This document shows positions 7,060-52,692 of a stretch of DNA of 64,000 bases, in pieces. A program made the position numbers and the translations under genes. Origin of the DNA: Cladopsammia gracilis (taxonomy: Eukaryota; Cnidaria; Anthozoa; Scleractinia; Dendrophylliidae); contig JAJGOT010000310.1 in NCBI GenBank assembly GCA_022457155.1, positions 982,834-1,046,833 on the forward strand, read 5' to 3'. The stretch's first letter is position 1; the number at the start of each line of letters is the position of its first letter. The notes under the pieces were generated by a model, which saw only the letters and a program-made list of their open reading frames with translations, was not told where the DNA came from and did not search any database.

Positions 7060-7356
7060 CCCTCCCTCTCAGTGTGAGCTTAGTTGAACATTCTCATTGT
7101 AGGATTGCACTTTAAGAACTGTTACGTACAAATATTCTTTACAACAGTAATTGCTAACACAAATTTTATTTTTTTCACCTAACTGACTTAACATTCGTTA
7201 TAACACAAGTTGACTATATCTAGCGATTTTTACGCTATTAAAAATATCTGGGATTCATAACTTAATACCACTTCAGTTAAAACAGATCAGTTAATAAACT
7301 TTTTTATTTTAGCCCTATATGTGAGTCACGTTTGTAGATTTACTGTTTTGGCCGCC
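7060..7356. other. 3' flank of CTL1, start of the duplicated unit
   Basis: From about 7060 the sequence aligns with about 52390 onward (ttaagaactgt, acaaatattctttac, caacttaata-type blocks), so the unit duplication extends past the lectin 3' end. A minus-strand AATAAA-type signal lies about 50 nt beyond the stop (tttatt on plus near 7305). Confidence 0.6.
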
Positions 7357-22297: not shown

Positions 22298-22374
22298 CGT
22301 TGGATCTGACTGCATAATGACCAAGATTATTTTATTCGTTTCACTTCTTGTGGTAACAACAATGTCTAAAACTC
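22298..22374 (+). CDS. RTK1 first coding exon (signal peptide)
   Basis: An acceptor (tttttatag) precedes 22298, so a 5' leader exon is spliced on. Translation starts at 22317 and gives [19 protein letters not shown], a classic signal peptide. The donor ACTC|gtaagt leaves phase 1, matching the CTLD exon. The homologous exon of RTK2 is at 61489-61565. Confidence 0.85.
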
Positions 22375-25300: not shown

Positions 25301-28300
25301 TGCCTACGGGTTAAGAATATTTCTCGGCTAAAACAGCTTCGTTCAACAAACTATTTCTCTTTGTTTGCTGAATTATCTTTTGCCCACTTTTTGTTTGCTT
25401 TAGATTGCCCTGATGGCTGGGAGGAGTTTGGCAGCTTTTGCTACAAGGTGATGGATAAGTTTGGATACTCACGGAAATTTACCTGGTCAAAAGCTCTACG
25501 TGTGTGTCTTGGGTTTGGAGGAAATCTCCTAAGCATAGTGAATGAAAAGGAAATGGAATTTGTTAATAACCTGTCTTTAAAGCTTATTGAGAACAATCGC
25601 GCTTGGATTGGGCTGGTTCACCAGTTCCAGAAAGGTGGAGATGTATGGATCGATGGTAGAAAATTTAACAGTTCTGTCTTCGTCAACTGGCGTGATAGCA
25701 AACCAAGTAACACAAGTGAAATTAAATGTGTTGAACTCTTGAAAAATGGTTGGAATCTTACTGAATGCTGCAAGGAAAATCAACATTACATCTGTAAACG
25801 AGCAAAAGGTGAGTTGCTGTAGTACGAAATAGAAATACTGCTAGTTATTGGATCTAAAAAGTGCGGTAGCTGCGTGCAACTTGGTCGGACACATGAAAAT
25901 ATACAATATAAAAATATATAAAAAGAAATTTTAATATAGAGCGATTTTCTTACATGTATTACCTTGAAACGATCACACGCAAACCCCAAATCAACAACCA
26001 AAAGAGCAGACAAACTGGAAGGAAGCGATTTGATTGGTTTCGCGAACGGCGGCAGATGTGCGCAGCGTTTGCTTTAGCGAACGCGCAAAGCAAAGCTAAC
26101 GGATTGTCGTTACTCGCTTATGAGCATACTAAAACGAGCAAAACTTGTTTTGATCCTTTTAACTTCTGGGGGATACTAGGGGATATTGCAAATCGCGTAA
26201 ACTAAAGGAAATTGTTTTTCAACGTCATAAAGAAATGGTTCTAAAATAAAAATATCCTGGATTGTTTGCGATTATATCTATCATATAAGCTTATTTCTAG
26301 GAGGGAATGATTTACCAGCAAAATGCATTTTAACAAAGTTTAAAAACAATGCCTATCGAAAGCATACAGAAGATCATTTCGGTTTAAACATGGCATCACT
26401 AAAATTTAAACAGCGCTATTAATTGTCAGAAGTTACTTAATATATTATAATTCCCTAGGACCACTGGCCTGTCCTGCTAATTGGTTTCTCAATGGCTTGT
26501 CGTGCTACGATTACAAACCACCAGATACATGGAATATTGCACGACAAGACTGCATTAAATCTGGAGGCGATTTGGTGAAGATAAATGATGATGATGAACA
26601 CCAATTTTTGATTCGCTTCATGGAAATTACTGGTCTGAAGAAAGTTTCAGTCCCTGTAAGTACGAGTTATGTAGATTTATCAGTAAAAATTGCAAAGATG
26701 CAGCAAGTACATTAAGACCAAAAAATACAATTGCCTTTGTATACTTGTTACTTTGTATACGTGCTAGCACAATTTTTTTTTCGAACTGAATATTACTGGT
26801 TTTTTTTTGTTTGTTTGCGTTTGTTGTAAAAAAAACTCGCAATATTACGTTACCGCTCACTCGTTTCATCACTAAGCTGTAAACTTAGTTAGTACGTTCA
26901 ATTTAAAGAAAAATATTGAGCCATGTCAGTGTGAAAACATAAGCTTACCGCAATATTGCGTTACGCGTTAACATTTCTTATTCACGGGTTGGCTCTCAGG
27001 AGCCTTTGATTTCAACAACTTCTCTTTGTTTCGATATCCCGATGAAACACTCTTCCTCGTGGAAGAGATTAGAAAGAGACAGTAAGGATACAGCTGTTTC
27101 CAATGAGATGTCTTATTGACTGATTGTTACTCATGTTTGGCCAGTTATATCTGAGTAATTATTCGCCGTTAGGAAAAATAACCGCAGTTTCAGTGTTCCG
27201 TTGTTAAAAAGTAGCGGTGTATGCGGAGGCCATCGCGAGCACAGAAGTATTTACACAATTTTGTGGGTGGGTCCAGAGGTATTGAAGCTGGCAGAGTCTC
27301 TATCGATCTTGCAGACAACTTGTTCTTCCTGTTACTTGGTAATTTTTTGGTTTCACGTTGAATGGGATTCAGATTCAGATTTAGACCTGGTGTAGAGGTC
27401 TTCTGAGATATTACAATAGTTCAGTGGGTCCTTTTTAATAGTGCTTCTGCAGTCTTTTACTGAGCGCTGGTCCTCACATGCAGAGCGTACCAGTGAATGA
27501 CTGTTTTGGAAAACAGTCCGCGGATAATTAATTATATATTTGTAAGTGATAAGTCTTATTTAGCAGCGTGTGGATGCTTGGGATGTTGGCATGCTACTTT
27601 CTCTCATTAATCTGTGAAGATAGCTGGTGCCAAGTGATTGAGGTGTCTACTGTATCACAGAAAGGCGGTCGACACCAAACGGCGATAACCTGTATTCGTA
27701 GTAATGCGGCAGACTCCCATCTGTCCTTTTTTCATGATGTGGAGAGCTGAGCTGGCTTCAGTTACCCTTTACGTTGTTAACTTGCTGACTGTGCATAGGC
27801 GGCGGAGCAGGGGGGCTGGGGGGGCTGTAGCCCCCCAAACGAAAATTTGGGGGGGGGGGGGGCACAGCCACCCACGTTTTGGTGCCTAAAATATCGCTAC
27901 CTCAGTACCTCAGGTTACAAATAAAAGAACCGTGTGCAAAGCTTTCAACAAAAATGCTGTCACCAAAACGCTACTAGGAGAGGTCCACAAACTGCTGAGG
28001 CTGTATTTGACATTACTTGTGGTATCAGCGACTTCAGACTTCAGAACGTACATTTTCTGCCCTCCGACAACTAAAGAACTATCTAAGATGCTCCATGAAG
28101 CAGGATCGTCTGAACAACTGCCTGCTAATGCATTGTCACAAATCGACTACGGACACACTGGACACTGTCAAGATTGCAAAGAGGTTTGCTTCTGCCAACG
28201 AACTACGAAAAGGACATTTTGGAAAATTTGAGTAGGGGTATGTTCTTGGCCCCCCCCCCCCCCCCCTCCCCCACCCCTTCCACGTTTAAAAACGCTCCGC

Positions 28301-31300
28301 CGCTCATATCAGGACCACCTATTTCTGTACAATATTTTTTTCTGGTTGCTGTTTTCTATTTATTTTTAGCATGTGTGGATCGGCGAAAAAAGAAACACAA
28401 AATGTATAAAAATGAGCACTGTTGATGGAAAGAAGGATGAAGAGAATTGCGATATTCTGAAGAATTATATTTGCGAGAAGCCAGCCCCAGGTATCAGTAT
28501 GACTCGCTTATGTTTAGCGTTGGAACGCTAAGATTCCAAGATTCCAAGTAAAAGAAATTAAAATGTTTCAAGCTTACTCCACAGGGTCTGAAGTGTTGCG
28601 TATTTTTACTTTAGTCTGTGAGTAACAAAAGGCTTTTCGTGTCTACACCGAATTGCAAATTAAAGATTGTGCCCTACACTCATTTTCAGTCAGCTCGAAA
28701 ACATGTTTGTACTGTCCTGTCTCAATACCTGTAAGTAAATAAAATGAATTTAATACTGTCTCTCCTTTTTTTAGGTAACGTTTGTTATCAGTGCTCAAAC
28801 AACATATCATCTGCTACCATGGCAGTCAACTGTACATTTCCGGAAAACCTTTGTTTTAAACTTACCAATAAAACGGCGAATGACGAAAAAGTCACCGTTC
28901 AAGGGTGTATGTCAGCTGAGCAATGCTCACGAAATGAGAACAAACATTTGGAATGTTGCGATGGTTATCTTTGTAATAAAGGTAAGCTTAACAATGGGCA
29001 GTAGTTTTACCATCAATTTGGATACAGGAACTTAAGTCTCAGCTCCTCTTTTTTTCATGCTTACCATGGTAACTTCGAGAATTTGTGATATCTCGACGCC
29101 ACGTCAGCACATTCCTGTGCTTATATCCGTGAGCATTTGTGTGGTCTCTTAAATGTTCGGCCACAAATCCTTGTTATTCGCAGGAGAGAAAACTCGTAGT
29201 ATCATTATTGTTTCAGTTCAATAGTTTATCTCAGTCAGTTTTCAAAAGAATGGTTCATTTCCTCTTTTCAGAAATCTCCTGTTATCAATGTTCAAGCAAC
29301 ACATCATTTGATGAATGCATTCGAAAACAAGCAATAGTTGATTGCCCGATACCTGTGCACCATTGCATCAAAATAGAAAATAAAACAACAATAAAGGATG
29401 GCAAAGTACAGACGACTTATCGCAAGGGATGTGCTACCAGAGACCAGTGTAAACAAACTAGCACAGGGACGTTGGAGCTGGAGTGCTGCAGTGATGACAA
29501 GTGTAATACAGGTAATGCAAAATGTATTTGTTGTTATCAAGGTACAAATATTCGTTCATTCAAACAATAATTAAATTATGGTGTGTATGATCAAGCCAAA
29601 TGAGTAAATAACTGGCATGGGGACGAAGGTGCTGCCTTTGCTATGATATCTCAAATGGTTAGACTTTCACGTGGCTCGGATGACCACGGCGCTCCCGTCT
29701 CCGATGGGGACGTAAAAGAACCACTGAGGACGTAACAAAACCCTGGCTGTGACCACCCTCAGTGACATGTATTCTTCATGGGTGGGGTGGGGGGAAATGA
29801 GATCAACAATGGACCGATAGCGGTTGCCTGAAGCGCTTGCATGGGCTGACGTCCGATCTCATTTTCATGAGCGTATGTAAAGCGCCATGAGACATGTAAC
29901 ACGTTCCAAACCGTTGGGGGATATTCCAAAGTTCACAATTCGGCTGAAATAGCTTCTTTTTGCCCCTTTTCATCAGACTTTGGCGACAAATTCAGCGAAA
30001 ATTACAGTCCTTAATCCCTTTTCTGCTGAATTTTAAATTGTTCGCTTAAATTAAGCTCTCAAAAGTCAAAAGTAGCCTAATTTTTGATCGGCTAATTTTA
30101 TCACTTTCGTAGCGTTTTCAAGACGAATTGCGAAATTCGGCAAGAATTCCAGTTTTAAACCCAATTTTACGCCACTGCCTTCGGCCAATATAAGGCTAGC
30201 AAACATATATTTCTGACAGAAGGCATTTTCTCCGTCTTAAAATATACCGATTGGTTTCGGAAATTGCTGAAGCCAATTTTTGGTCTTGGAAATTTCTGAA
30301 ACCACTCAAAAGTAAAAAGGCTTCGGAAATTTCTGAAACCAACGGTGCTTAAAAATGGTTTTGGAATTTTTTAAATTAATCGTGAATAAAAATGGTTTAG
30401 GAAATTTCTAAAACCAACCAGGCTTAACAAAATGGTTTCGGAAAATTCTGAAACCAAACGTGAATAAACATTATTTCGGAAATTTCTGAAACCAATCGTG
30501 AATGAAAATGGTTTCGGAAATTTCTGAAACCAATTGGAATGTAAATGGTTCCGGAAATTTCTGAAACCAATCGAATATCAAAAAGGTTACAAAAAAACAT
30601 TAGCATGAGAAATATAATTACACAAACAAAATTTCTGATAACGTTGAGCATACAATATTTCTCTAATTCTGGGCAGGGCCGACTTTGACTTTAAATTACA
30701 TACAGCTCCTGTATTCGTCAATAGTTCAGTTCAGGTAAAAGGAACCATTTCTAAAAAGCGTATAGCATTTTGTGGCGTCGACTTTCCTCTGTAAGAGCCA
30801 TTTCCAATAATGTATCGTGATGTTATTTTCTGTAACTGTCACCACTTTTCCAATAACTGGATTTTTTTCCCAGTCGAGCAGATGAACCGCGACAAACGCG
30901 CCGACACGTCCAAACAATTCTTCACAGTTTGGACGGGATTTTCTCTTTGTTGTGGATGTCTTTACCTTCCAGTTTAGACCTGAAACAATAGAGTTCTGTG
31001 ACTTGTTATGTTCTAAACAACTGTTTTCAAGAATAACCAGATGTGATACAAGTTCATTATTCAGTGAAGTTCTAAACGTTACCCTTATGAAAGTCACGCT
31101 TAACAAAAGGCTCTATCAGATATCGCGTGACACCCGCTGTGACCTGACTGACTCAAGAATCTGCGAGTTTTACTGTGAGAAGATTTTGCTCTCTTTTTTT
31201 CTTTTGAAGAGCGTAATCGTTCTGTTACCTCCAGATTATGAAAGTACAATCTTTAAGCTTTACGTAGAAGTGTAAATCATCCCGGTAAACAATAATCGTA

Positions 31301-34300: not shown

Positions 34301-37300
34301 ACAGGAACAGAACGTTACAGGTTCTCAACTTTAAACTATTTTGCGTTCGTGGCAGTTACATTTTACATCTGTGCGTACATCCCAGGACACATCGCCTTGC
34401 CTGGCAGCTTGTGAATCGTGATTTTTTTTTCAAATTTCAACACCAAATTGACCTAATTGACAACTGATACTGTATCTTGAGACAATTAAGCTATTCAGTT
34501 TCAACACAAGAAAAACCTAAGCGAAGATATTGTAGCTTCAACTGAACTTGATAAAAACTCGTTTTAGTCATTATCAATGCGTAGATGGCAAACCCAGCTA
34601 AATTCCTCTATGAATTCGTCCTTACTTGGCAAGTTGTGTGTATTTGGTACGCAATTACAGTCATGGTACTATGCCTCACAATTGACACATGAAATCCACG
34701 AAACAATTTCTTCGTCATCTTCTTCCGTTCCACTGAAGACAAAGCTTCAGTTGATTTAATATATGATCTTTTCAATATCTTTATTATAAAGGCGCATACA
34801 ATATAAATAACGCACACGGTATAAAAACTCGGTGGCTCAATGTAAACAATACTAGACAGTAATTATAAGTGGACGTTAAGAAGGGGGGGGGGGGGGGGGG
34901 GGGTTATGAGCTTAACGTCCGATGGAAGTTAAGCGGGGAACAGGGGAATATGTCGACGGGCCCTAAGCTTAACGTTAAAAAAAACCCAAGTGAGCTTAGT
35001 TCTCCCAGCTACACTAACATAAAAAAAAACATTGCCTGACTTCGCATTTTTATTTTAAGTTCCAGGTCCACCATTCGCCCATGCATATATGCTGGGATAT
35101 GCCATGTCTTTGAAGTCGGAAAGTATAAAGATTTATTGAGTTATTTATTCCCTGTCATAAATGTAGGCAGAATTTTCTCTTCTACCATTACTAGTTATTT
35201 AATGTTAGAGTTTGCACTGCACCTTTCATTATGTAAAAACTGTGTAGCCATTTAATGTACTATGATTTCTTTACATGTATGTAGCTGGATGCAGAATTTT
35301 TGTGTTTTGTGCCTTTATTCATTTTCCTTATTATACAGCGTGATTTTGCTCTGAATTTATTTGGTGCAAAATGCATAATTTTCCCTTCATTGGTCTGAAA
35401 GTTTAATATAGAGTAATCTGCACTTTGTTCATTCATGGAAGAAAATGCAATTTTTTTTTTCTAAGTGTTATTTGCACCTAAAAATATTAATGGGGCAAAG
35501 CACAGAATTTTTGCACCCTCATTAGTTTCCAATATAATTATTAATAGTGTGATTTGCACTAAATGTGATTTGTACTAAATTTATTCATGGAGCAGTGCGC
35601 AGAATGTTTGCGCTCCCACTAGTTTTCTTAACTATACAGAGTAATTGGCATTGATTTCTTTTATGGAGCAGACACAGAAATTTTGCGCCCTCATTAGTTT
35701 TCGTAATTATACAGTGTGTTTGAACTAAATTTATTCATGGAGTAGTCTGTAGAGCGCAGAATTTTTGCGCTCTCATGAGCTTTTGTAATTATGCAGGGCC
35801 GGGTTGTTCAAAGCGCGGTTAAGTTAACCCAGGGTTAGCATCAATTTTGATTCCAGTTAAATAATTAATCGATGGAGTTTATTCCAAAGTATTTTTGCCC
35901 TTTAGTTTCGTCTCTGACTTGTCTTCGCGTGTAACTTATAATTAGCTTTTGAAAACAATTCTAACACGAAATCTTATATCCTCGGTTAAGTTTTAATCCT
36001 GGGTTAGCGTTAACCAGCTTTCGAACAACCGTGCCCAGGGGAATTTGCACTACATTTATTCATGGGAAGAACGCAGAATTTTTGCTCAAAGAGTAAAAAA
36101 AGAACTTGGCCAATTTTTTTCCCATCTTGACCTCACGTTTGGCCAATACAAACATTTGGCTCTCGGTTCGTACAACTCTCTGTTTTGCCGGATTTTATAG
36201 TTAGATAGCATTAGAACGCTTTCACCTTTTTGCTTTAGCTATTTTGTTTGATGAATTTATGTTTACGTATTAATAAAGCTATCTAACTGTATAACAATTT
36301 TCTTTTCACCAGTTTTCACTTAGTAAATTAACGACGGAGTTATTACATGAAATCCTATTTTGCAATCTTTGTACTAAATATTTTATTTTAATCATAAAAG
36401 TCAGTCAAAGCATTTCTATAATGTAATTAAAACACTTTCAAACGTATTTTTATTTGCTTATTTTGTGTGAAGGTTCAAACGTGAACACAACTGGTTTCGG
36501 AAATTTCTGAAACCAATCGGGTTTGAAAAGGGTTTCAGAAATTTCTGAAACCATTACGCCGAGAAATTAAAATGGTTTCGGAATTTTCTGAAACCATCGG
36601 ATTCAAGAAGGGTTTCAGAAATTTCTGAAACCAGTTTTTAGTGAAAATGGTTTCGGAAATTTCTGAAACCAAGCGAGAATGAAAACGGTTTTGGAAATTT
36701 CTCAAACCAATCGTGGATGAAAATATTTTTTAAAGTCCATCTGAAAAAAAGGGATAATGATGTGTTCTAGCTGAAACGGCATTTTGTCCGGCAGAAAAAT
36801 AGTAGTGTTTGTAACATTTTAGCCGAATATTACGATTCCGTCAAAGAATGACAGTTTAAAGTCATTTTCAGCTGAAAATTTTCGACTTTGGAATATCCCC
36901 CAACTGTTTGGAACGTGTTATGTGATGTGCGTGCTATACTGACGCTTACGTTTGCTCTCAATTTCAATTAGATTCAGGACCTAGATGCTATGAATGTACC
37001 AGTGCTTTGTCTTATGAAGAGTGCTCAGCCCGCCAGTGTATTTTTAACGACGGCCAATGCTATTATGCCTGGAATCAACAAGGTTCCAATATTGAAAATC
37101 GGTATAAGTATGGATGCACAAAACGACATCGATGTAATAAAACCGTGGACGGTTACTTTACACAGTGCTGCGAAGGAAATCAATGCAACGAGGGTAAGAA
37201 AAAGGAAGCAATTATATATTATTTTTCCTTATCAGGCCTGTTGCATGCATACGTCTTCACCTATAATAAATCCTTTAGTTATTTTACTTCCCGATAATTT

Positions 37301-40300
37301 GTTTGTAGCGGATTTGATGCCGAATTTTTCACATTTTATAAACGGTAGAATGGACCTTTAGGATGTATGAACATCGTAGTAACCGGCAAAACTTTGGGCG
37401 GTTGGGGTGTGCTGTCAACGCCCCTAAAATTAATCTTTACCCTTTTTTTTAATACGTGGAAAGGTATGCAAATTTTCACACGGTCGATCAGCTGTAAACA
37501 TTGAAGTGCGATATGCACTGGTCACCTGCCTTACCATGGACACGGCGTTGGATGGAGGGGAGGGAGGGTGGAGAATCTGATGCCATGGGTGGGGGCAGGT
37601 AAAACAAATCGTCTAGGATATGGGAGGGTCCGACGCTTTCGTATTTTCGAGTTGACTTATAGCAGCCTTTCAGATTGCTAACATAGACACCTATATTATA
37701 CCTGTATATTTAATATGTTCCCTTCTGGTGTGGGAAGAGTAGTATAAATCGAAACAGAGTAGTTCGACTTTCAGTTTAATCTGTTAAATTATTATTGTCA
37801 GTTACTCTTCCTTTGTTTTCTTTATTTAACATTGCAGTGAATAAACCTACGGAATCAACGGAGAAGAGCGATAAATCTACACCAGGAAACTCGACCTCCA
37901 CTAACATGGTTATTTACATATCATTTGGTGTCGCCTTCGTTCTGTTGCTGTTGTTGTTGTCTTTTGGCATTGGCTTACGGTACTACAGGAAGTTACATCG
38001 CAAGAAAATTGAGAGGTTTGTGCAGTTTTGCTAACTACGTACTTAACTCACTTCATCTCCAGTGTAGTGGAAGGCTTCCCATAAATATAGACCAATTATT
38101 GGCTTATATTCGAGAAATTTCAATGATGAAAGAATCATCATTATTGATTTGTATCGTTGAGAAGGCCAGTTAATCAGTTATATAAGAAAATTGTAAAACC
38201 GTAGCCATGGTTAATCATAACGAATAAATATAACAACGTTCTCTGGATTAAATGTTTTACTGGAAAACTAAACATCTCCTATTGCTGTATTATAAGCATG
38301 TTTTTCCAGATTAATACTGCAAGTGTGTATGAACAAGCAATTCTCAGAAACTATTCTTTTTGTTCTTATTCCGGCCGGAATATGGTCAATCGAACGCGCC
38401 CTTAAATAATTATAGCTTTTTGCGTTCATTCAGGCTGATTTATATTCATCAAATTTCTTCCCTTTTTAGATCAGCTCGTTCACGACGCGAAATTATCCAC
38501 CTCAACAAGTGGGAAATTCTTCCGGAGCAAATAGAATACGAGGAAGAGCTGGGGCGAGGAGCGTTTGGTGTGGTTCACAAAGCAATTTTTACGAAGCGAG
38601 TTGGGATAGAAGTGTTTTACAATCGTAAACAGAAATTACAGGATCCAAAGAAGGCACTTCAGGTGGTTGCTGTTAAAGTTTTGCAAGGTGAAATATAAGC
38701 TAGATTAAAAATAAACAAAAAGTAGAATTAGGCTAAAGCGGTATGAGCATACCGAACAGCCCGATTTGGCGAAACAATTTGTTGAGTGCCTCTGAACCTT
38801 GAAGACACGTGTGAACAAAGAGAAAAAGAAGCGGAGTAATTTTATTCAGGAAGCTAAGGCGGACGACAAGGCCACATTTTCAAAAGAGTACACATCTACA
38901 ATTTGCATAATGCAAGTCAGTCTTGTTTATATGTGAACTTCCAAACAAAGGTACTGAAATGAACGCAGAACTCTTTCTGACAAACAGTTTATTCACATAG
39001 ACATAACTTTGCTTCCAAAAGCAAAACGTTTAAACCTTTTTCCGCTCGGAATCAAGCTTTCAAGCTCAACATGTGACCGTATTATTTTGTACAAAAATAT
39101 TGTCATTTCGAAGAAACAAAGAAATTAATTATTCATCGTTGAATCTCAACATGACTTCTTTTTTTTATTCCCCTCAGCCTCGAAACCAGGCAAAAATTTT
39201 AATATGCCGAACAAGAAGCTGTACACAGCTTGAACTCGTGGCGTCTTTAACCCATTGCAGTATTGATTCCAAAGTGCTTTTATGGAGAAACATAAAATTA
39301 TGTCTAAAAAAAACTACATTTACTACATTCAGTAGACGATACTTGAAACCTCGATCGCTAAGCAAATGACAAGTTATATAAAACAAAAAAAAAATTGCCG
39401 TTAAGACTAACAATCGATAACTCCATTACATTTACTTGTGTTTAGATGATCCAACTGAAGCGCAGAAAGAAGAATTTATGTCTGAAATTGAGCAGATGAA
39501 GCTGTTGGGTTCACACCCGAATATCGTATCCATGGTTGGATGCTGCACACTTCAGGAGCAAACGTTTCTGGTGATAGAATACGTTCCGTTTGGTGACCTG
39601 CTAAAGTGGTTACGTCGCAGGAGAAAAATGGTAGGGAAAATGAAGAAAATTCTTTATAATAATTCATTTGTAAAATATAAAGAAAGAAACGAAATAATCT
39701 ATTAAGGTTTAATCCATTTCAACCCATTTAATCAAGACTTGAGACTTGAACACAGTGAAATAGGTGATTATCACTAATGAGGCAATTTATGTCTAGTCCC
39801 TAGGGACTCGAGAACTTCTATGTTTCCCGAGACGAATATAAACTATATACATAGCAGAACAAACGTATTTAAAATTAAAAGATCAAACGTTTAAAAGAAA
39901 CTTGCAGTTCCATTAAAATGTCTAATTCAATATCAAAACAACATTTCGACATATGTGTTACAAATTTTAATTATTTACACGTACGTTAAAATAGTTTCAT
40001 TTAAAAAAAAAGTTTAACTAAGGTTACAGTGTACCTTCAGATCAAAAATTTATCGAAAATTTTTTTTTGGCGTCAAAATAAAGTTTACAGAATGAACTTT
40101 CATTCAAAACAAAAATTATCGAAAAATAGTGAAAATTGACGGAGAAATGACGGTATAACTTTTGTGGGCGGAGTTTGTTTATGAAGCGATATGTTTTTTT
40201 AAGCGCTGTTTTCTCAAAGTTAATTTTTCGCTTGTTGGGGACACTTTAAAAAGCTACAACTCAAAGGAAATTTGTTCGATTTTCCTCAAATTTGGACAGA

Positions 40301-43300
40301 AGCTAGGCTAACATATAATCAACAAAAACGTGTCGGCGAATTTCTTAATTCCGAAAACTTTTTCGTCAAGAGCCATTTCCGTGCGATCATTCCAATTTTT
40401 TTTCTCCCTTTTGCGAAAATATTCTGTAACTTTTCACTGCAATTGAATATGGGAAATCGCCGACACGTTTTTTTAGCGCTTCGTGTCCGGAAACCCGAGA
40501 ACAAATCAAATTAGCAAAATACAATAATCGCTTTGAGTTATAGCGTTTTAAAGCTGATTCGGACGTTCGAATTTAGACGTCGTAAAAAATTCGACAATTC
40601 ATTTTATTACCAAATGGTTTCCATATTTAGACAGCCAGCTCTATAAGCTTTAATTTGATATCTGGGTTTAGGTATATTAAGTTTAATCTTAAGACGCTAG
40701 AGCTGTTATACTGGAGACACCCCCGAAGGTACACTGTAACCTTAAGAGAACAACACTTCTGCACGCGCGTACATTTGTTTTTCAAAACGGTAAAAATCAA
40801 CATGGTTATGCACCAGTCATTTGAAACTCATGGTACCTCCTCTGGGAATGAGCGGTACAGCGGGAAAAGCGCCTCATTTTCACTGGTTTGGCGTACTCTG
40901 GAAGTGGGGGGACACCTGCTGTCACTTAATTTAAAAATGCGCTGATCATGCCACCACAACTTCACGCACTGTTCACTTGCAAGTTCGGGCAACATTCGCG
41001 GTTAACAATGAACTGACTCTCTTCGCGATGTTGCCCGCCACTAGACTTTTGGCGGGAAACAGTTCTCTTGTTGGATGTGATGTGACCATGAATAAGCCAA
41101 TGAATGCGCGCGTCGTGTCCGGAAAAACTTCAGCTATAAATAAAATGAATGCGAGTAAAGCCAGAGGCACATGATGTTGTGATCCAGTCCCCGCTCACTC
41201 TAGTATGTGCGTGATATCTTTGTGTTAAGACTAAACCTTCTCTCAATTAAAAGTTAATGTATTAATTGCTCGTACATTTTCATATTTGTCATGACAAAAC
41301 TGTGCTAACGAGTACGCTTGCTGAATTTCTAGATCAACAAACATGAAGCCTCTGAGAAATGTTATGCTGACAAAGAGGTTTTAAACAATCAAGAGGAGAC
41401 CAGAGATCAAGTAGGTCCTTCCTTTAGAAGCTTCTACTTATATTTCTCCAGGGCCGGATTGTTCAAATCAATTTTGATTCCAGTTAAATAATTAATCAAT
41501 GGAGATTTCTCCAAAGTATTTTTGCCCTTTAGTTTCGTCTCTGACTTGTGTCCGCATGTAACTCAGTATAATTAGCTTTTGAAAACAATTCTAACAAGAG
41601 AACTTAAATCATCTCGGTAAAGTTTTAATCCTGTGTTAGCGTTAACCGGCTTTCGAACAACTGGGCCCTGATCTATTAACTATTTACTATTGTTCTGTTA
41701 CATTTTTGAATTAAAATGAAATTGGTTTCTCTATTGTACATCAATTACGAACTGTTTGGTTCTTTATCTACCTAGTACCGCATTCATGATATTTTTCTAG
41801 ACAGGAAAACGCCGGCGACTGATAGAATGACAACAAATTCGTTTTTTCCTTTTTTACATAGGAGATCAAAGTTGCTGAGGAGCAGGTCAAGAAAGAACAG
41901 ACCCAAGCAAACGTGGAATTGGAGCCATTGCAAGATAACAGTGACGTCAGGCAGGACGTGACATTGACTTGTGAGAATCTCACTGAGGTAAGAAGGAAGT
42001 GTATTGGGTGCATTACTAAATTCGTCTATTTCAGTTTACTTTTTAACGGTTTTGGTTTTTTTGCGAATGACTTCTTGTTAACATTTATTGTTAATATTTC
42101 CATTTTTGTATAATATGGAAATGAAAACAAAACCATTTTGCTCCCGTTGTGTAACATGTATAAATGTCGTTTAATCATTTAGGAAAGCGGCGCTGCTAAC
42201 AAAGAAGTTGAAAGAGATGAACTTACTGCAGGTCAAACTTCAGTGAATATTGTGTTGTCGCCGCCACAAGACAACAAAGATGTCTTTCTTGAAATGACTT
42301 CGTCGACTGGTAAAGTAAGAATAGAATTCAAAAACGTATAATTTTAAATTAACATTTAATACCTGGTTACAAGTTTACCTTATAACTGAACCATACAGGC
42401 CATAACATTTATTTCCATATTTCTCAACCATATTTCGGTAGTTAGTTTGTAACTGTAGTTATAACTTAGTTAGCTATATAGAGTGTTTTCACATGACGTC
42501 ATAAAAATTAAAAAATCTAAAGTATACATCCTACAAAGCTGTTTCTAACATGGTATGTAGATACCAGTGTTATAATCTTTCACAAAAAGTTTCAGGTTTT
42601 AACGATGTTTTGTTTTCGATTTATAAAGGTTGTAAATGTGTCACGCAATTCGTCACGCTACTTCAGATAAACCGTTAAAATAAACAAAATTGAACTAGTT
42701 GAAAGTTATTAATGAATTATAGATGCTTATAAGCCGATTTCATTCCTCTTATAGTGAATTCAATATTTTGTGATGAGATTTTTGGTGTTATTAAGACTTT
42801 AAAGTCTTTAAATTTTTGGCCGCCATGTTGCTGTCCCTAAGTGGGACACCAAGATGGCCGCTCCATACATTTCTTACTAAAAAATGTCTATACTCGTTCG
42901 CCTATAACTCTTGAATGAAATGTTGTTGCGCTTCAAAATTTGGCCCAGATGTGTAGTTTTAAATTCTCTACAATTCCATAAACATTTTAGAATCGAAAAC
43001 TGCTTCTGAATTTTGATATGACGTCAGTGAAAACACTCTATAGTTTTGTGTAAGTGTTTCAGTTATTAATAGTATGTTTATTATTAATATAGCTTCTGTA
43101 GCTCATGTTTTGAGCAATATTTCTTGAATGTTAAATGCAACCTTTATATTTACTTTCTTTTTTGTTTATGTCTATTTTTAGGATGAGGAGTTCAAAAACA
43201 CCTTTGACAAAGAATTGTTAACCGTCCCATCGACATCACAGGGAAACAGTCGAACTGCCGCCATGTTGCTTTCAACCGAAAGTCTTGATGAGTATGATAC

Positions 43301-46300
43301 TGAAGAGGAGGAGGACTTTTCCACTAAACAGCTTTTCCAATTTGCTTGGCAAATAGCAAAAGGAATGGTAATTATAATTATTTTCTGGATTACATATAAC
43401 AATGATCCTTATTTTTGCGTAGCACTAGGGGCGCTAAATTAACATAACAATGTGTTAAAGAATTTCCAAGCAAGCGAGGGACTTAAAGGTAAAACAGATT
43501 ACATTTTTCGATGGGAATTTATGTTGATATCAATCTTTGATTGACTTTTTCTTTGTGCTCTCGTTAATTTTGGAGAATTGTTTATAAAACGTGCTTAAAT
43601 TCAGTTGCTTTGATTTGTTGAATTTCATCGAAGACAGCTTGGCCTCGATGCGCTATAAATGGTACGCGTTTTGCTTTTAAACATAAACTTATTGAGATTT
43701 GAATAAAATTTTTCGAAAGAAGATTGTGTTGTGCAATTTTATGTGTTCGTTCATTCATTACATAGGTTTAAAAGCGATTTTATGTAAACAAAAGAAGACT
43801 TGGATTTTATAGTAACTGTTCTAACTTCACTCGCGTCACCTTATGCAAATATGTTTGTGTATCTTTTGCAATTTTGATTTCCAAATCAGTTTCTCGGGCA
43901 ATTTTTGATAGGTGACAGGTATATTTTATTCGGAAATTAGTCATACTAGTTATTCTAGACCCAGAAAAAGTTGTTTTTTGTGAACTTTTGTACGGTCTTA
44001 ATGTACTGTGCAGACGGTCGCGTAATTCTGTTTTTGAGAAGAGCCGGGTCGTCAATCTTAATTCTTGTGCTTCCGACCTTTCACCTTAGTTAAGCTTATC
44101 ATCGGCTTTCTGTTCAGGGAGCGACGCTGTTAGGCTCAGCCTATCTATGTATATTATTCCTTTAGAATCATCTCGCCGAAAACGATTTTGTTCATCGAGA
44201 CCTCGCAGCTCGTAATATCCTGGTTGGCCGTGATAATCGAGTAAAGGTGTCAGACTTTGGGTTGATGCGTCAAATCTATGAAGATGTGTACAGATCAGAG
44301 AAGACGAAAAAGCTTCCTGTGAAATGGATGTCCCCAGAATCACTTTATCAAGGCGTTTTTACCATCAAGAGTGATGTGTGAGTAGAAATCGTCTCTGTTG
44401 ATCATGCCACATTATATAATCTTTGAACAAATGACAAACATGACAAAGACTCAAACAGAATTTCGGTTAAAATGGTGCCATTTGTGTCAAGATAAAGGTT
44501 CCCTCCAACCTCCAGACGGACACTCGATTAACTGCCTCCACCCCAGTAGCCGTTTTGATGACAAAGAGTGGGAAAACAGGGAGCGAGGAGCACGATTGGA
44601 AGAAAGGATCAATCCCATAATTCTACCAGCACCGCCCTTGACCAGGAAGCGAGGCCCTGGGTCTAGGTTTCACTCGAGGAATTCTGGTCATTAACTGGCT
44701 TTGTATTTCTTTCACAGCTGGGCGTATGGTGTTCTTCTCTGGGAAATGGCTACCTTAGGTACGTAAACCAGTTGCGTTTATTATAACTATCGCTCTGTAC
44801 ATTTGTTTATTGTCTTTTTGTCTTTTCTAACATGATTATGGTGGTTCAGTTAATAATTAAAAAACCCTCACAAAAATAGTATTGCATCGGCTTTGATACA
44901 TTATTGCCTTGAAAGCAATGATTTGTGTAAAGAACCCCTTTTGTACTAAAGTTCCCTCTATAAACTTTTTTACAACCTTTATTGATGAGTTCATTTTATC
45001 AATGTCCCTGTCTGGAGGGCTGGTTAGAGGGGAGAGGGGAGTGGGGAAGAAGTGGGAGTGGGGTGGGGTGGGGTGGTCGAAGGCTGTTGCAGCGGCGAAA
45101 ACACATTTTCAGATATTGCAACTCTGACGGGAATGATTTGAAAACTACCAGAGAATAAAATTGAAGTTGGTCTTTGATCATTTTTGCTCTGAGTCGGGTA
45201 TTATTTTTTAAGGGAGTTATGACGTTTATATGCAATTAAAACTACATTGGAGAAAGGTTTCACGCGCCTATTAATCTGAAAATTGGAGGAGGTGGTCAGA
45301 TATGGTAATATAATTTTTGTTTTTAAAATTATTACTACCCCTGGACCCAAAATACTCCAAGGTGCCGTACCACACCCCACTGCCACCTTTTATCCAAGGT
45401 GCCTCACCACACCCCACTGCCACCCTTTATCCAAGGTGCCTCACCACACCCCACTGCCACCCTTTATCCAAGGTGCCTCACCACACCCCACTGCCACCCT
45501 TTATCCAAGGTGCCTCACCACACCCCACTGCCACCTTTTATCCAAGGTGCCTCACCACACCCCACTGCCACCTTTTATCGTTTCATTCCTACTCGTCACC
45601 GTTTAATTCAATTACTATTGCAGTTAAAAATCGAAGAAGGGAAGCCTGTTAAAGATAAGTTATTATCTGGTATGTTGTTTTTATCGCCTCAGTATCGCCT
45701 TATTTTTTGCTCAGGAGGTGTGCCATACCCCTTGCTGACCAATACAGAGCTGTATCAACTGATCAACACTGGTTATCGCATGGAAAGGCCTGACATGTGC
45801 TGCGATGACGCGTAAGTTCTTTATTTAGCAATGTAAGCAAAATTAGCTAAAATCGCTTTATCCAGCGTTGTATTGACGATTAAGGGGGCAGTGTCCCGTC
45901 TTATATATCGTATGTGATATATCGTCTGATATATCGTGTGTGATATATCGTCTGATATATCGTATGTGATATATCGTCTGATATATCGTATGTGATATAT
46001 CGTCTGATATATCGTGTGTGATATATCGTCTGATATATCGTGTGTGATATATCGTCTGATATATCGTGTGTGATATATCGTCTGATATATCGTGTGTGAT
46101 ATATCGTCTGATATATCGTGTTTCATGATTTAAGTTTGCTTTATTATCTTGAAATAGGAAAAAAAAACATCACCAAAAGTGATGAAAGCAAAAAAAAATA
46201 TAAATAAAACTAAAGAGACAAAGTAACGACTAAAAAAGTCAAAATTCCACAAGAATGGCAATTTTGATTTCTTGACCGCCTGTCACGAAGTCAAAATTGA

Positions 46301-46868
46301 TGAACTGTAATCCACTTCCATCCTTGCAATCCTGCTTTTTATCTCCAAACTACAGCGTCTGTTTTTCTCTACAGAACATTTGTATCCAATTTAGTTGTAT
46401 ATTTGGTGGCATTTGGCGTTACACCATGGAAAAATGATAGTGAATTTTGTTAATTGAGGCCACGAAACCAAAGAAAATGAAAAGTTTGCAAAGGAACACG
46501 GTTGCTGATATATGAAAACGTTCCGTTAAATTTTCAATGGAATGTTCTCGCTGTAGAATTCATCTGAACAGTTTTCATTTGTTTTCATTTCTTTATCCAT
46601 TGTAGACATGAGCTGATAAGGGAATAAAGAGCTTATTGGACCGGTTGTTATTTTTATTTTAAACTTTTTAATCAATAACAGACATGAACTGATGACTGAA
46701 TGCTGGAGGGAGGACCCATGTACTCGCCCCAGTTTCCTGCAACTGGTTGAAAAACTGGAGGTGATATTGCAGAAGGATGCACCGTACCTTGACCTGGGAA
46801 AGCATGATGAATCCCGTCCGTACTACAACGTGCCTCCTGGAACTAGCACTGCTGACGAAAGCAAATAG
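22317..46868 (+). CDS. Receptor tyrosine kinase RTK1: 2 CTLD, 3 LU, TM, split kinase
   Basis: 18 coding exons: 22317-22374, 25404-25808, 26459-26655, 28370-28490, 28775-28981, 29272-29511, 36972-37193, 37838-38015, 38470-38687, 39446-39630, 41333-41410, 41862-41987, 42183-42314, 43182-43367, 44166-44377, 44719-44759, 45715-45811, 46682-46868. All junctions are GT-AG with matching phase; the total is 3090 bp, 1029 aa plus stop. Domains: signal peptide, CTLD1, short CTLD2, three Ly6/uPAR domains, one transmembrane helix with a basic stop-transfer, and a tyrosine kinase ([36 protein letters not shown]) with an acidic insert of about 160 residues. All catalytic residues are present, so it should be active. 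The kinase resembles the FGFR/VEGFR/Ret group. CTLD-RTKs are known from Hydra (Sweet Tooth); CTLD plus LU in one RTK is not familiar to me. Noncoding 5' exon(s) are likely further upstream. The exon model is inferred without transcripts. Confidence 0.85.
22936..24221 (+). mobile_element. TIR element with minisatellite arms carrying an HTH ORF, in RTK1 intron 1
   Basis: TIRs begin tggttgccgaaatgtagc (left, from 22938) and end with the complement at 24219. TA lies directly outside both ends. Each TIR continues into an array of about 20-bp units (aaaatatattttcattcgat): about 22965-23295 on the left and, inverted, 23920-24190 on the right. The arrays face each other and could form a hairpin of several hundred bases. 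The interior carries the open frame at 23298-23834. TA flanks resemble Tc1/mariner-type targets, but no DDE domain is present. It is probably non-autonomous. Confidence 0.85.
23298..23834 (+). pseudogene. HTH-domain fragment of an integrase/transposase-like protein
   Basis: 178 codons. The C-terminal 50 residues form a GRPRF...[22 protein letters not shown] helix-turn-helix. This resembles the N-terminal region of animal genome-encoded proteins that continue into an rve-type integrase core. After the stop the same frame continues ([14 protein letters not shown]) for about 20 codons before the inverted minisatellite, so the catalytic core is absent. It might be a captured or truncated transposase, or the element's own DNA-binding protein. 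The assignment is by motif memory only. Confidence 0.5.
24222..25403. other. RTK1 intron 1, distal part
   Basis: Contains a TATA box (tataaaag, 24649-24656) followed by an ATG-initiated 31-bp open stretch ending in a GT donor (24700-24730). A block at about 24762-24985 recurs at about 40946-41150 in a later intron of the same gene (gatgt.atgtgaccatgaat). No other feature is seen. Confidence 0.45.
25404..25808 (+). CDS. RTK1 CTLD1 exon
   Basis: A single 405-bp exon, phase 1 at both ends, holds one whole [55 protein letters not shown] and YIC. The EPN/QPD and WND Ca2+ ligands are replaced by KPS and WNL, so classical Ca2+-dependent sugar binding is unlikely. Seven Cys are present, one more than the canonical six (ECC near the end). 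Confidence 0.9.
26459..26655 (+). CDS. RTK1 CTLD2, N-terminal half
   Basis: 197 bp, phase 1 to 0. It encodes [15 protein letters not shown], an alpha-1 segment [15 protein letters not shown] and [10 protein letters not shown]: the two N-terminal Cys, helix 1 and helix 2 of a CTLD. It joins in phase 0 to 28370. Confidence 0.83.
27795..28308 (+). mobile_element. hAT-derived fragment in the RTK1 CTLD2 intron
   Basis: Ends are cataggcggcggagc and gctccgccgctcatat with adjacent G and C runs. The interior carries a hAT C-terminal dimerisation signature in two frames: [11 protein letters not shown], then [15 protein letters not shown] and [13 protein letters not shown] (28020-28235), ending GHFGKFE and a stop. 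A frameshift near 28030 separates the parts, and the catalytic region is missing. It ends 62 bp before the CTLD2 second exon. Confidence 0.75.
28370..28490 (+). CDS. RTK1 CTLD2, C-terminal half (compact)
   Basis: 121 bp, phase 0 to 1. It reads HVWIG, then directly [27 protein letters not shown] sits at the expected beta-2 position, but the 40 or so residues usual before the next Cys (WxDG, NW, EPN) are absent. All six canonical Cys of the two exons are kept. This fits a compact CTLD lacking the long loop. A missed exon in 26656-28369 is the alternative; I did not find one. Confidence 0.75.
28775..28981 (+). CDS. RTK1 LU1 (Ly6/uPAR) exon
   Basis: 207 bp, phase 1-1. It starts CYQC and ends ECCDGYLCN, the CC..xCN hallmark of three-finger LU domains. 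It has nine Cys; the partner of the second Cys seen in LU2 and LU3 is missing. Asn-glycosylation sequons occur (NNIS, NCT, NKT). Confidence 0.88.
29272..29511 (+). CDS. RTK1 LU2 exon
   Basis: 240 bp, phase 1-1, preceded by tcttttcag. It contains CYQC at the start, ECCSDDKCN at the end and the full ten Cys of an LU domain. Confidence 0.9.
30726..31106 (-). pseudogene. Unrecognised ORF in the 7-kb element
   Basis: 126 codons on the minus strand. The middle part ([26 protein letters not shown], written here only in pieces: [23 protein letters not shown]) looks like a small beta-barrel of chromo/Tudor style. After HYW the adjacent frame gives [11 protein letters not shown], which continues the pattern better, so a frameshift is likely. 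Function unknown; probably an element protein. Confidence 0.35.
31465..31660. mobile_element. Fold-back element, 196 bp
   Basis: Arms of about 63 bp start tgttccaggcgttcagatag at 31465 with the exact complement at 31660. Long arms with a short loop; nested in the 7-kb element. Confidence 0.88.
34000..34964. mobile_element. 965-bp TIR element nested in the 7-kb element
   Basis: Ends ggggccgtcgacatattccc (34000) and its near-complement ending at 34964 (gggaatatgtcgacgggccc), followed inward by ccgctta and G-rich runs. No transposase is seen. Confidence 0.8.
35280..36090. repeat. Degenerate minisatellite of about 100 bp, interrupted by a MITE
   Basis: Recurrent blocks gcagaatttttgcgc, tcattagtttt and cactaaatttattcatgg repeat with loose spacing. 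The array is broken at 35798-36039 by a MITE (gggccgggttgttcaaagc ... gctttcgaacaaccgtgccc) whose second copy lies at about 41449-41670. Confidence 0.7.
36972..37193 (+). CDS. RTK1 LU3 exon
   Basis: 222 bp, phase 1-1. RCYEC at the start, QCCEGNQCN at the end, ten Cys. It begins 51 bp after the end of the 7-kb element. Confidence 0.9.
37838..38015 (+). CDS. RTK1 juxtamembrane and transmembrane exon
   Basis: 178 bp, phase 1 to 2. A Ser/Thr/Lys stalk precedes a helix of about 22 hydrophobic residues ([20 protein letters not shown]), then [10 protein letters not shown] as stop-transfer. Confidence 0.9.
38470..38687 (+). CDS. RTK1 kinase exon 1 (Gly loop, catalytic Lys)
   Basis: 218 bp, phase 2 to 1. 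[20 protein letters not shown] start, glycine loop GRGAFGVV and VAVKVLQ with the beta-3 Lys. About 20 extra residues between beta-2 and beta-3 ([16 protein letters not shown]) form a longer loop than in FGFR. Confidence 0.93.
39446..39630 (+). CDS. RTK1 kinase exon 2 (alpha-C to hinge)
   Basis: 185 bp, phase 1 to 0. [12 protein letters not shown] supplies the alpha-C Glu. [12 protein letters not shown] and [20 protein letters not shown] are typical of the FGFR/Ret-like group. It ends at the start of the kinase insert. Confidence 0.92.
40021..40741 (-). mobile_element. TTAA-type MITE family D, copy 2 (inverted)
   Basis: Inverted near-full copy of the 19580-20297 element with the same TIR. The left flank is CTAA and the right is TTAA. 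It lies in the intron between kinase exon 2 and the kinase insert. Confidence 0.82.
41333..42314 (+). CDS. RTK1 kinase-insert exons a-c (41333-41410, 41862-41987, 42183-42314)
   Basis: Three exons of 78, 126 and 132 bp, each phase 0 at both ends. They encode 112 hydrophilic, Glu/Lys-rich residues with no known domain ([36 protein letters not shown]). Any of them could be skipped without a frameshift. Acceptors and donors are standard (ttctag, acatag, catttag; gtaggt, gtaaga, gtaaga). Confidence 0.82.
42477..43042. mobile_element. MITE with tatagagtgttttcac TIR in a kinase-insert intron
   Basis: Ends tatagagtgttttcac-atgacgtca and tgacgtca-gtgaaaacactctata. The centre holds a near-palindrome pairing ggccgccatgttg with caagatggccgc (about 42828-42870). 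No ORF. Confidence 0.85.
43182..43367 (+). CDS. RTK1 kinase-insert end and alpha-E exon
   Basis: 186 bp, phase 0-0. An acidic segment [13 protein letters not shown] is followed by [12 protein letters not shown], the alpha-E helix that returns to the kinase fold. Confidence 0.9.
43455..44155 (+). repeat. Dispersed repeat family A, copy 3, abutting a kinase exon
   Basis: Collinear with the other family A copies. Its recognisable end (gctcagcctatctatgtata) lies about ten bases before the acceptor of the catalytic exon at 44166. Confidence 0.78.
44166..44377 (+). CDS. RTK1 catalytic-loop exon
   Basis: 212 bp, phase 0 to 2. [30 protein letters not shown] and [17 protein letters not shown] and the tyrosine-kinase-specific AARN are intact. 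Activation-loop Tyr residues are in IYEDVY. Confidence 0.95.
44719..45811 (+). CDS. RTK1 C-lobe exons (44719-44759 and 45715-45811)
   Basis: A 41-bp exon encodes [14 protein letters not shown], and a 97-bp exon encodes [16 protein letters not shown] and [11 protein letters not shown]. Phases run 2, 1, 2. The intron between them holds a 37-bp tandem repeat. Confidence 0.92.
45355..45585. repeat. 37-bp tandem repeat, about 6 copies
   Basis: Units contain ccaaggtgcctcaccacacc and ccactgccac, almost identical to each other. Period 37 was measured between ggtgcc positions 45361 and 45398. Intronic. Confidence 0.92.
45899..46122. repeat. 26-bp tandem repeat (tgatatatcgtctgatatat)
   Basis: About nine near-identical units with an internal half-period of about 13 bp. 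In the last intron of RTK1. Confidence 0.92.
46682..46868 (+). CDS. RTK1 last exon (C-lobe end and Tyr tail)
   Basis: [18 protein letters not shown] and [11 protein letters not shown] close the kinase domain. The tail has APYLDL and RPYYNVPP, then TAG at 46866. A candidate poly(A) signal ATTAAA lies at 46919 and AATAAA at 47404. Confidence 0.93.
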
Positions 46869-51572: not shown

Positions 51573-52692
51573 GTTGTGGTCTACCCTCCAACGACGGTAC
51601 TCCTCACTGTCTTTATCCAAATGTGAATGCCTTTGACACCGTTTACAAACTTTAGAGAGTGGCTCTGCATCTAAGACTCTAGCAGAGTCGATTGAAATAA
51701 CAATTAAGCAACCATTCTTGGAAGAGTAACCCCTTATCTTCCAGGTACCGTCACAGAAAACACCACAGTTGACTACATCATTTTCACTAGCTTGTGCTGG
51801 GCATGCCTGATCTGTTTTGCTGCCATTGACATACTGTCCTTGGCAATTGCTTTAATCTCGATATTGCTGTTGTTTCGCTAGGATCTTTGTGTTTTTCGCT
51901 GTGATATTTTAGTCAGCCAAACAGCTTTTGTTTTCAAGCTACAGGTAAAACAGACTGCTCGCCGAGTGGACGAGCGGACGGACACCATCTTGTTTGTTGC
52001 TATTGCTGTCCTTGTATCTTTTATCGTGGGTTCCGCGCGTGTTTAGAACCCAGTTGGCGCGCGCCAAAAAAAAAGGGTACCAGCCACCTTAAAGGGAGAC
52101 CTCTATTAAGGCGCGGGAATACCTTTGAGCGTCGCGAATACTATTTCAGCATCCACTAAGGAGACAGCTACATGCTTGGGTGTAAACTGTAGACTTGTCT
52201 GCGCTTAGTTCAATTCCCACTCATACACTGTGATGTTTCATTTCCAGTTATTGTTCTGTCCTGTGAAGGTCTGTGCAATGAAGGTAACGCTTAGGGTCGA
52301 GATTAGAGGAACAAAATGGAGTAAAACCACCAAAGATTACACTCCGCTCCCATCATGCAAGGATAATAGATCTTCCCCCTCCCCCTCAGTGTGAACTTTT
52401 CGCAGCCTATAGAGTTGAACATTCTTATTATAGGATTGCATTTTAAGAACTGTACAAATATTCTTTACGACAGTAATTGCCAGCACCATTTTTATTTTTT
52501 TCATCTTAGCATTCGTTATAACAAAAGTTGACTTTATATCGAAGGAATTTTACGCTATTATTACTGAATATCTGGGATTGATTTGTTACTACATCTTCAG
52601 TTAAAAGGGATCAGTTGATTAGAATAGCCACTTTTAAACGTATTTTGTTTTAGCCCAATTATAGCTTTACTATTTTGAAAGATCTGGCGACC

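Follow-up and report, generated by a model that had tools for sequence, protein, structure and literature searches.

The window analysed here, a 64,000-nucleotide stretch of the stony coral Cladopsammia gracilis genome (contig JAJGOT010000310.1, positions 982,834 to 1,046,833 of the forward strand), holds a gene for a putative receptor tyrosine kinase (RTK) that joins C-type lectin domains (CTLDs) and Ly6/uPAR (LU) domains to a kinase. We built its exon model from the window sequence. Eighteen exons run from 22317 to 46868 on the plus strand; all 17 introns are GT-AG, phases agree at every join, and the frame has no internal stop over 1029 amino acids (aa), in keeping with the original prediction of 18 phase-consistent exons. 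From N to C terminus, the product comprises a signal peptide, a CTLD, a shortened second CTLD, three LU domains, a transmembrane (TM) helix and a tyrosine kinase with a long insert.

Exons and domains of the receptor gene

By tblastn at 1e-3, all but three of the exons were matched by homologues (15 of 18), with a single protein, P0006, accounting for exons 12 and 13 (P numbers denote homologues in the protein set). The three without a match in that search were exons 1, 4 and 16, the last being too short. Each is kept in copies of the gene elsewhere in the genome, here called U1, U2, H and C280. Exon 1 (22317..22374), encoding the signal peptide, is kept in U1 and also at 61508-61565, the start of a second copy in the window, where both ATG and donor are preserved. 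Exon 4 is kept in U1, U2 and C280 and is supported by alignment with Porites P0002; exon 16 is kept in U1, H and C280.

The two CTLDs differ in completeness. Exon 2 (25404..25808) encodes CTLD1, a Lectin_C domain, and exons 3 (26459..26655) and 4 (28370..28490) encode the two halves of CTLD2; exons 2 and 3 are supported by Pfam, tblastn and alignment. The two CTLDs originally predicted hold as far as CTLD1 and the two Lectin_C stretches found by Pfam in the whole protein (2.6e-17) are concerned, whereas CTLD2 is only a partial, loop-less domain of about 100 aa, as in P0002. No exon for the missing loop was found between 26655 and 28370 by tblastn with homologues at 1e-3.

EPN/QPD and WND motifs in the long loop mean calcium and sugar binding in CTLDs. 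Neither window CTLD keeps these canonical motifs. Calcium-dependent lectin activity is not predicted for the product, because CTLD1 has the non-canonical KPS/WNL (against EPN/WND in the aligned Oculina P0001) and CTLD2 lacks the long loop, and the earlier label "lectin-type" is doubtful for this gene. Among relatives, Oculina P0001 has EPN/WND and QPN/WND, Oculina P0003 has QPD/WND and EPN/WQD, Porites P0002 also lacks both motif sets, and Pocillopora P0005 is intermediate.

Three LU domains follow, one in each of exons 5 (28775..28981), 6 (29272..29511) and 7 (36972..37193), which together with exon 2 are phase 1-1 modules. All three start with CxxC and end with CC....CN; LU2 contains ten cysteines and finishes in CCxxDxCN (CCSDDKCN), and the D is absent from the CCxxxxCN ends of LU1 and LU3. 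Passages of PMC2728513 give eight to ten cysteines and a CCxxDxCN-type end as the uPAR/Ly6 feature, a pattern present in the window gene. Pfam registers only a weak Toxin_TOLIP match in the whole protein (17.2 bits against a cut-off of 21.2); taken by itself, the LU2 exon passes that cut-off (22 bits), and the LU1 and LU3 exons pass none. All three exons are matched by tblastn, and a profile iterated from them finds LU in 10 of 121 homologues (25 domains in 11 proteins, including the window model). Orthologues P0001, P0005 and P0008 carry Pfam U-PAR/LY6 (PF00021), which together with the cysteine pattern supports the three LU domains first proposed. A half-LU-like piece noted by eye at 28690-28730 was left out of the gene, its phase not fitting.

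The remaining exons encode the membrane-spanning and signalling half. Exon 8 (37838..38015; tblastn, alignment) encodes the stalk and TM helix, exon 9 (38470..38687; gene model, tblastn) the juxtamembrane segment and kinase N-lobe with GRGAFG and VAVK, and exon 10 (39446..39630; Pfam, tblastn) the N-lobe up to alpha-D. A long insert between the lobes occupies exons 11 (41333..41410), 12 (41862..41987) and 13 (42183..42314), each supported by tblastn and the C280 copy, and ends in exon 14 (43182..43367; Pfam, tblastn), which also encodes alpha-E. Exon 15 (44166..44377; Pfam, tblastn) carries the activation loop (IYEDVY). The C-lobe follows in exon 16 (44718..44758, 41 nt; gene model), exon 17 (45715..45811; gene model, tblastn) and exon 18 (46682..46868; Pfam, tblastn, alignment), which ends in a tail with the conserved Y1003 and YYNVP.

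The signalling half has the features of a receptor tyrosine kinase. Pfam matches PK_Tyr_Ser-Thr (PF07714) at 1.1e-87 in the whole protein, on the cytoplasmic side, and the catalytic motifs HRDLAARN and DFG are intact in the sequence. A signal peptide lies at the N terminus and a single TM helix precedes the kinase (both judged by eye), so the TM helix and complete tyrosine kinase of the original prediction stand. Activation-loop Y889 and tail Y1003 and Y1016 are present in all 22 aligned family members, including the window gene. The closest solved kinases are FGFR1-3; an EGFR entry has a higher summed score because it contains the kinase twice. In passages of PMC8662651, receptor kinases are associated with a long insert at this position.

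The introns carry repeats of their own. Intron 1 contains an insertion at 22936-24220 flanked by inverted repeats (22936-23242 against 24221-23916 inverted, 90%); it consists of a ATTCGATAAAATATATTTTC-type repeat around a 183-aa open frame (23283-23834) without a Pfam match and looks like a DNA transposon. Short-repeat arrays around GGTTTCGGAAATTTCTGAAACCA lie between the LU2 and LU3 exons at 30250-30590 and 36476-36730, and the last introns hold tandem repeats at 45356-45579 and 45880-46120 (37-bp unit; TATATCGTCTGATATATCGTGTGTGA type).

A coral clade of receptor kinases with varied ectodomains

CTLDs, LU domains and a kinase occur in one chain in other stony corals. The architecture search that the original prediction proposed turned up six predicted proteins from five named species: Oculina patagonica P0001 and P0003, Porites lobata P0002, Porites evermanni P0004 (which ends within the kinase), Pocillopora verrucosa P0005 and Stylophora pistillata P0008 (one CTLD seen). 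Their LU domains are found by profile in all six and by Pfam as well in P0001, P0005 and P0008. All six are gene predictions of their sources; jointly they cover the window protein from end to end in alignment, and in Porites the unusual loop-less CTLD2 aligns as well. P0006 adds an uninterrupted 673-aa frame covering LU2, LU3, TM helix and kinase; its contig has 2,696 bases, against about 17 kb for the same stretch in the window, and so appears to be the spliced transcript of a relative. In a search for the architecture outside stony corals with Oculina P0001, the best 120 of 746 matches included mannose receptors and no further kinase. All named members among the matches listed (best 120 per search) come from stony corals; the architecture was found here in corals only.

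Ectodomains diverge faster than kinases between species. Identity to the window protein is 41-54% in the ectodomain and 67-74% in the kinase for P0001, P0002, P0003, P0005, P0007 and P0008, and 67% against 83% for P0006.

Published accounts contain the parts of this receptor. Hydra Sweet Tooth, a CTLD receptor tyrosine kinase, is cited in a passage and a reference title of PMC3703292. Passages of PMC8260672 include U-PAR/Ly6 in a set of domains considered alongside CTLDs in cnidarian proteins. In Pocillopora damicornis, the mannose-type CTLD protein PdC-Lectin and the uPAR/Ly6 protein Pdcyst-rich are both down-regulated before bleaching, according to passages of PMC2728513; unlike the window gene, these are two separate small proteins, with no kinase mentioned in those passages. 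A protein uniting CTLD, LU and kinase appears in none of the passages of PMC8260672, PMC5094078, PMC8662651, PMC2728513, PMC3703292, PMC9897584, PMC10236652 and PMC12250223.

Kinase phylogeny places the window gene in a coral clade apart from the Hydra CTLD-RTKs. Of 124 sequences, made up of 122 proteins and one segment each of FGFR3 and EGFR, 112 had both lobes; removing seven annotated as non-receptor kinases left 105 rows for a quick tree, of which 58 were hand-picked for a careful one. The window kinase falls in a fully supported coral clade in both trees (22 rows, support 100; 19 rows, 100/100). Sweet Tooth was represented by stand-ins, six Hydra RTKs with one to four CTLDs (P0091, P0109, P0111 and P0119-P0121), which form part of a separate Hydra clade in the careful tree (100/96). 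Forcing the 19 coral rows together with these six cost 132 log-likelihood units (approximately unbiased (AU) test, p 1.4e-41), and forcing together all 15 CTLD-bearing RTKs of the tree cost 986 log units (p 1.1e-41), the constrained groups having been named after the quick tree was viewed. A further CTLD-RTK, Porites P0078, is placed elsewhere again. The rejected joint clades indicate more than one origin, or repeated changes of partner, for CTLD-bearing receptor kinases in cnidarians.

Ectodomains vary widely within the coral clade. CTLD2+LU is found in the window gene, Oculina P0001 and P0003, Porites P0002, Pocillopora P0005 and, with one CTLD seen, Stylophora P0008. As far as predicted, P0006, P0007 and P0057 have LU alone. 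P0010 and P0022 have CTLD alone; P0012, P0013, P0016, P0020, P0021 and P0023 have CUB, and P0011 has CUB+LamG. P0015 has Ig, as does P0014 by resemblance to it, without a Pfam Ig match, and no domain was recognised in P0017 and P0019. The CUB, Ig and CTLD-only RTKs (P0010-P0016 and P0020-P0023) resemble the window gene in kinase clade, insert and tail and differ from it in an ectodomain of CUB, Ig or CTLD alone by Pfam. A 17-row tree implies at least three architecture changes, three being the minimum possible for four states; in it, P0006 and P0007 were scored as CTLD+LU despite showing only LU. CTLD+LU may be the ancestral state of the clade, because three of its four subclades contain it in the careful tree, which does not settle their branching order.

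Tandem copies, exon mosaicism and constraint

Most LU exons found in the genome lie close to kinase exons. We searched the species' own assembly (877.8 Mb, 1469 contigs), in which the window lies at a contig end (C952:982834-1046833), and hand-picked 45 kinase-exon matches from 144 listed (143 of 2220 candidates scored). Of 47 LU matches used out of 56 (nine short half-LU repeats on C803 were left out), 43 lie within 40 kb upstream of one of these kinase exons on the same strand, where about 0.1% would be expected per match; the other four are the weakest counted (E above 1e-4). This gives 18 LU-linked kinase loci, with no LU exon found upstream of the remaining 27 kinase-exon matches. The genome search gave 18 CTLD1 exons at E below 1e-22; 13 of them are followed by a kinase exon within 40 kb, in 12 cases with LU1 between; this count took in 21 of the 45 kinase-exon matches (those on contigs with CTLD or LU matches, plus one), and one of the 12 loci relies on a weak partial match on C30. 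One of the five CTLD1 exons without a downstream kinase is truncated by a contig end. Locus counts are not haploid gene counts, because we infer that the assembly holds both haplotypes in part. Passages of PMC10236652 describe pervasive tandem duplication in corals. The arrays and the coral proteins support the predicted single anthozoan RTK gene of CTLD, LU and kinase exons.

Individual copies range from intact to broken. The copy on contig C280 has exons 2-18 in order, with exons 3-18 of equal length to those of the window gene, with correct splice ends and no internal stops; part of exon 2 was read directly, and a genome-search match covers the entire CTLD of that exon. U1, upstream on C952, has the same plan with one LU, its 16 exons giving one open 878-aa frame. 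U2, also upstream on C952, has one LU and a 1-nt deletion in exon 2, the fetched stretch ending 0.6 kb past exon 15. The second tandem copy in the window, on the plus strand, consists of its exon 1 and a CTLD1 exon (63501..63915; 84% nucleotide identity, 1-nt deletion near its end) before it runs off the contig. H (C247:722001-752000) looks chimeric: the 3' half of the kinase is near-identical to that of the window gene, the CTLDs are divergent, the TM and insert exons are doubled, and exon 10 is matched over only 140 of 185 bases; neither exon 1 nor LU was found within these 30 kb. LU1-3, TM helix and kinase are present at two more sampled loci, one on C803, which also has both CTLDs, and one on C30, with a CTLD1 further upstream. 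Parts of the array may be decaying, because some copies (U2, H and the second window copy) are broken.

Identity to the window gene changes along the copies. U1 comes closest over exons 1-4, at 92.6-98.2%, where H reaches 73-89% (exons 2-4); from exon 12 to exon 18, H is closer than U1 in every exon (95.1-98.9% against 80.6-95.7%). C280 diverges by 5-9% in exons 2-5 and by under 3% in exon 6 and all later ones. Mosaics of this kind would be expected if copies exchange sequence.

Kinase cores are constrained between copies and ectodomains less so. Between the window gene and U1, the ectodomain has 42 nonsynonymous (N) and 11 synonymous (S) differences (N/S rate ratio w 1.21), against 25 and 20 in the kinase core (w 0.41; N deficit, p 0.0037). 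Values for U2 are 0.83 and 0.30 (N deficit, p 0.0017), and for C280 0.50 and 0.24. The ectodomain and kinase N/S counts differ at p 0.011 for U1 and p 0.025 for U2, two comparisons that are not independent. Positive selection on CTLD1 between the two window copies was considered and rejected: w was 2.7 in the first 60 codons but 1.17-1.43 over 124 (Fisher p 0.20-0.42), and 1.29-1.56 with gap-flanking codons dropped (p 0.15-0.32).

Other related sequences lie nearby. Two minus-strand CTLD exons, 7357-7848 and 52693-53208 (Lectin_C 1.6e-17 and 2.6e-18), sit in stretches that are 75% identical (7060-7918 and 52377-53261) and apparently belong to a segmental duplication that includes the two receptor copies; weak matches at C952:853359 and C247:721496 are possibly related to them. 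At C803:1083088-1084119, one 361-aa open frame matches the C-terminal half of LU2 repeatedly, over about 33 aa each time, with similar short matches at C803:1168174 and C803:1665205, and the LU exon seems to be internally expanded in one C803 paralogue.

Readings of the family and its possible role

We consider it probable that the window gene encodes a single-pass RTK of a tandem-arrayed stony-coral family, with a CTLD-LU ectodomain and a signalling half that stays constant as the ectodomain changes. The gene is real and intact; it has orthologues in corals, lies in tandem arrays, pairs a constrained kinase with a faster ectodomain and has copies that are mosaic exon by exon. Several observations nevertheless count against this interpretation. 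The gene model is a prediction from genomic sequence; LU identity rests on cysteine pattern and homologues, and an AlphaFold model of LU2, checked for the three-finger fold, is of low confidence (pLDDT 43). In U1, all 15 acceptors are AG but 14 of 15 donors are GT, the end of exon 13 being unsettled. Some clade members have LU without CTLD (P0006, P0007, P0057) or neither (P0017, P0019), perhaps as partial predictions. Constraint is less clear-cut in two copies: against the damaged H, w is 0.80 in the ectodomain and 0.52 in the kinase core (N deficit, p 0.0038), and for C280 the ectodomain-kinase contrast is not significant (p 0.17). In no ectodomain comparison (U1, U2, H, C280, second window copy) is w significantly above 1, and U2, H and the second window copy are broken.

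Three other origins for the gene fit the evidence poorly. The 7.5-kb intron between LU2 and LU3, and the status of the named orthologues as gene predictions, would suit a CTLD/LU surface protein adjoining, but unspliced to, a TM-kinase gene; with phase-consistent joins, the same modules joined in six coral proteins and in the intron-free P0006 contig, LU exons upstream on the same strand at 18 kinase loci, and CTLD1, LU1 and kinase in order at 12, two genes are extremely improbable. A branch of the Sweet-Tooth-type receptors of Hydra that had added LU modules, as the original prediction had it, would share with the six Hydra CTLD-RTKs in the kinase list the CTLDs outside, one TM helix and a receptor-type tyrosine kinase inside. 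We think this very unlikely, given separate well-supported clades, the rejected joint clade and the position of P0078; the LU profile finds no LU in any of the six. An FGF-receptor-type growth factor receptor that acquired odd outer domains would explain why the closest solved kinase domains are FGFR1-3. FGFR ectodomains have Ig domains and are not known to carry CTLD or LU, whereas Pfam at E 0.1 finds no Ig family in the window protein, and human FGFR3, the only FGFR row in the trees, lies outside the window clade in the quick tree and outside all coral and Hydra rows with the root on EGFR, which makes this origin unlikely. TGF-beta-type receptors, too, place an LU-fold ectodomain above a TM helix and kinase; they differ from the window gene in having a Ser/Thr kinase and no known CTLD.

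The main rival to a role in recognition is relaxed constraint on redundant copies, with ectodomains drifting, many copies dying and one ordinary developmental or growth-factor-like role in the few intact ones. It fits as well as diversifying selection, because ectodomain w, at or below about 1, is never significantly higher and the C280 contrast is not significant; the broken copies also speak for it. Yet every exon read is open in the window gene, in U1 and in the sampled part of C280, alignments show LU and CTLD cysteines to be largely conserved, the kinase is constrained, and the architecture is common to the Oculina/Pocillopora/Stylophora and Porites/window groups. We regard relaxed constraint as a real possibility, if not the one we favour.

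A mode of action can be proposed for this family. The CTLD-LU ectodomain would bind a ligand, protein or glycan, and ligand-driven dimerisation would cluster the receptors. Clustered kinases could then trans-phosphorylate their activation-loop tyrosines, followed by insert and tail tyrosines (Y1003, YYNVP), which may dock SH2 adaptors. Duplication, recombination and fast substitution would alter the ectodomain (CTLD2+LU1-3, CTLD only, CUB, Ig), leaving the signalling half constant. A constant kinase with a changing ectodomain appears suited to recognition of variable partners, and we hypothesise that the family recognises self, symbiont or microbe. The fullest version, a stony-coral recognition system in which recombination joins one conserved kinase in RTK tandem arrays to exchangeable CTLD, LU(1-3), CUB or Ig ectodomains, with receptor sets differing between individuals or species for self/non-self, symbiont or microbe and a direct tyrosine-kinase output, is a doubtful proposition.

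To our knowledge, few receptors for allorecognition or symbiont recognition have been identified in stony corals. With fast-changing lectin/Ly6 ectodomains on a constrained kinase, and mosaic copies in tandem arrays, the family offers a concrete and testable candidate set for coral recognition receptors. Passages of PMC8662651 infer ectodomain shuffling across holozoan kinase evolution, and the coral family would be a recent example of it inside one genome.

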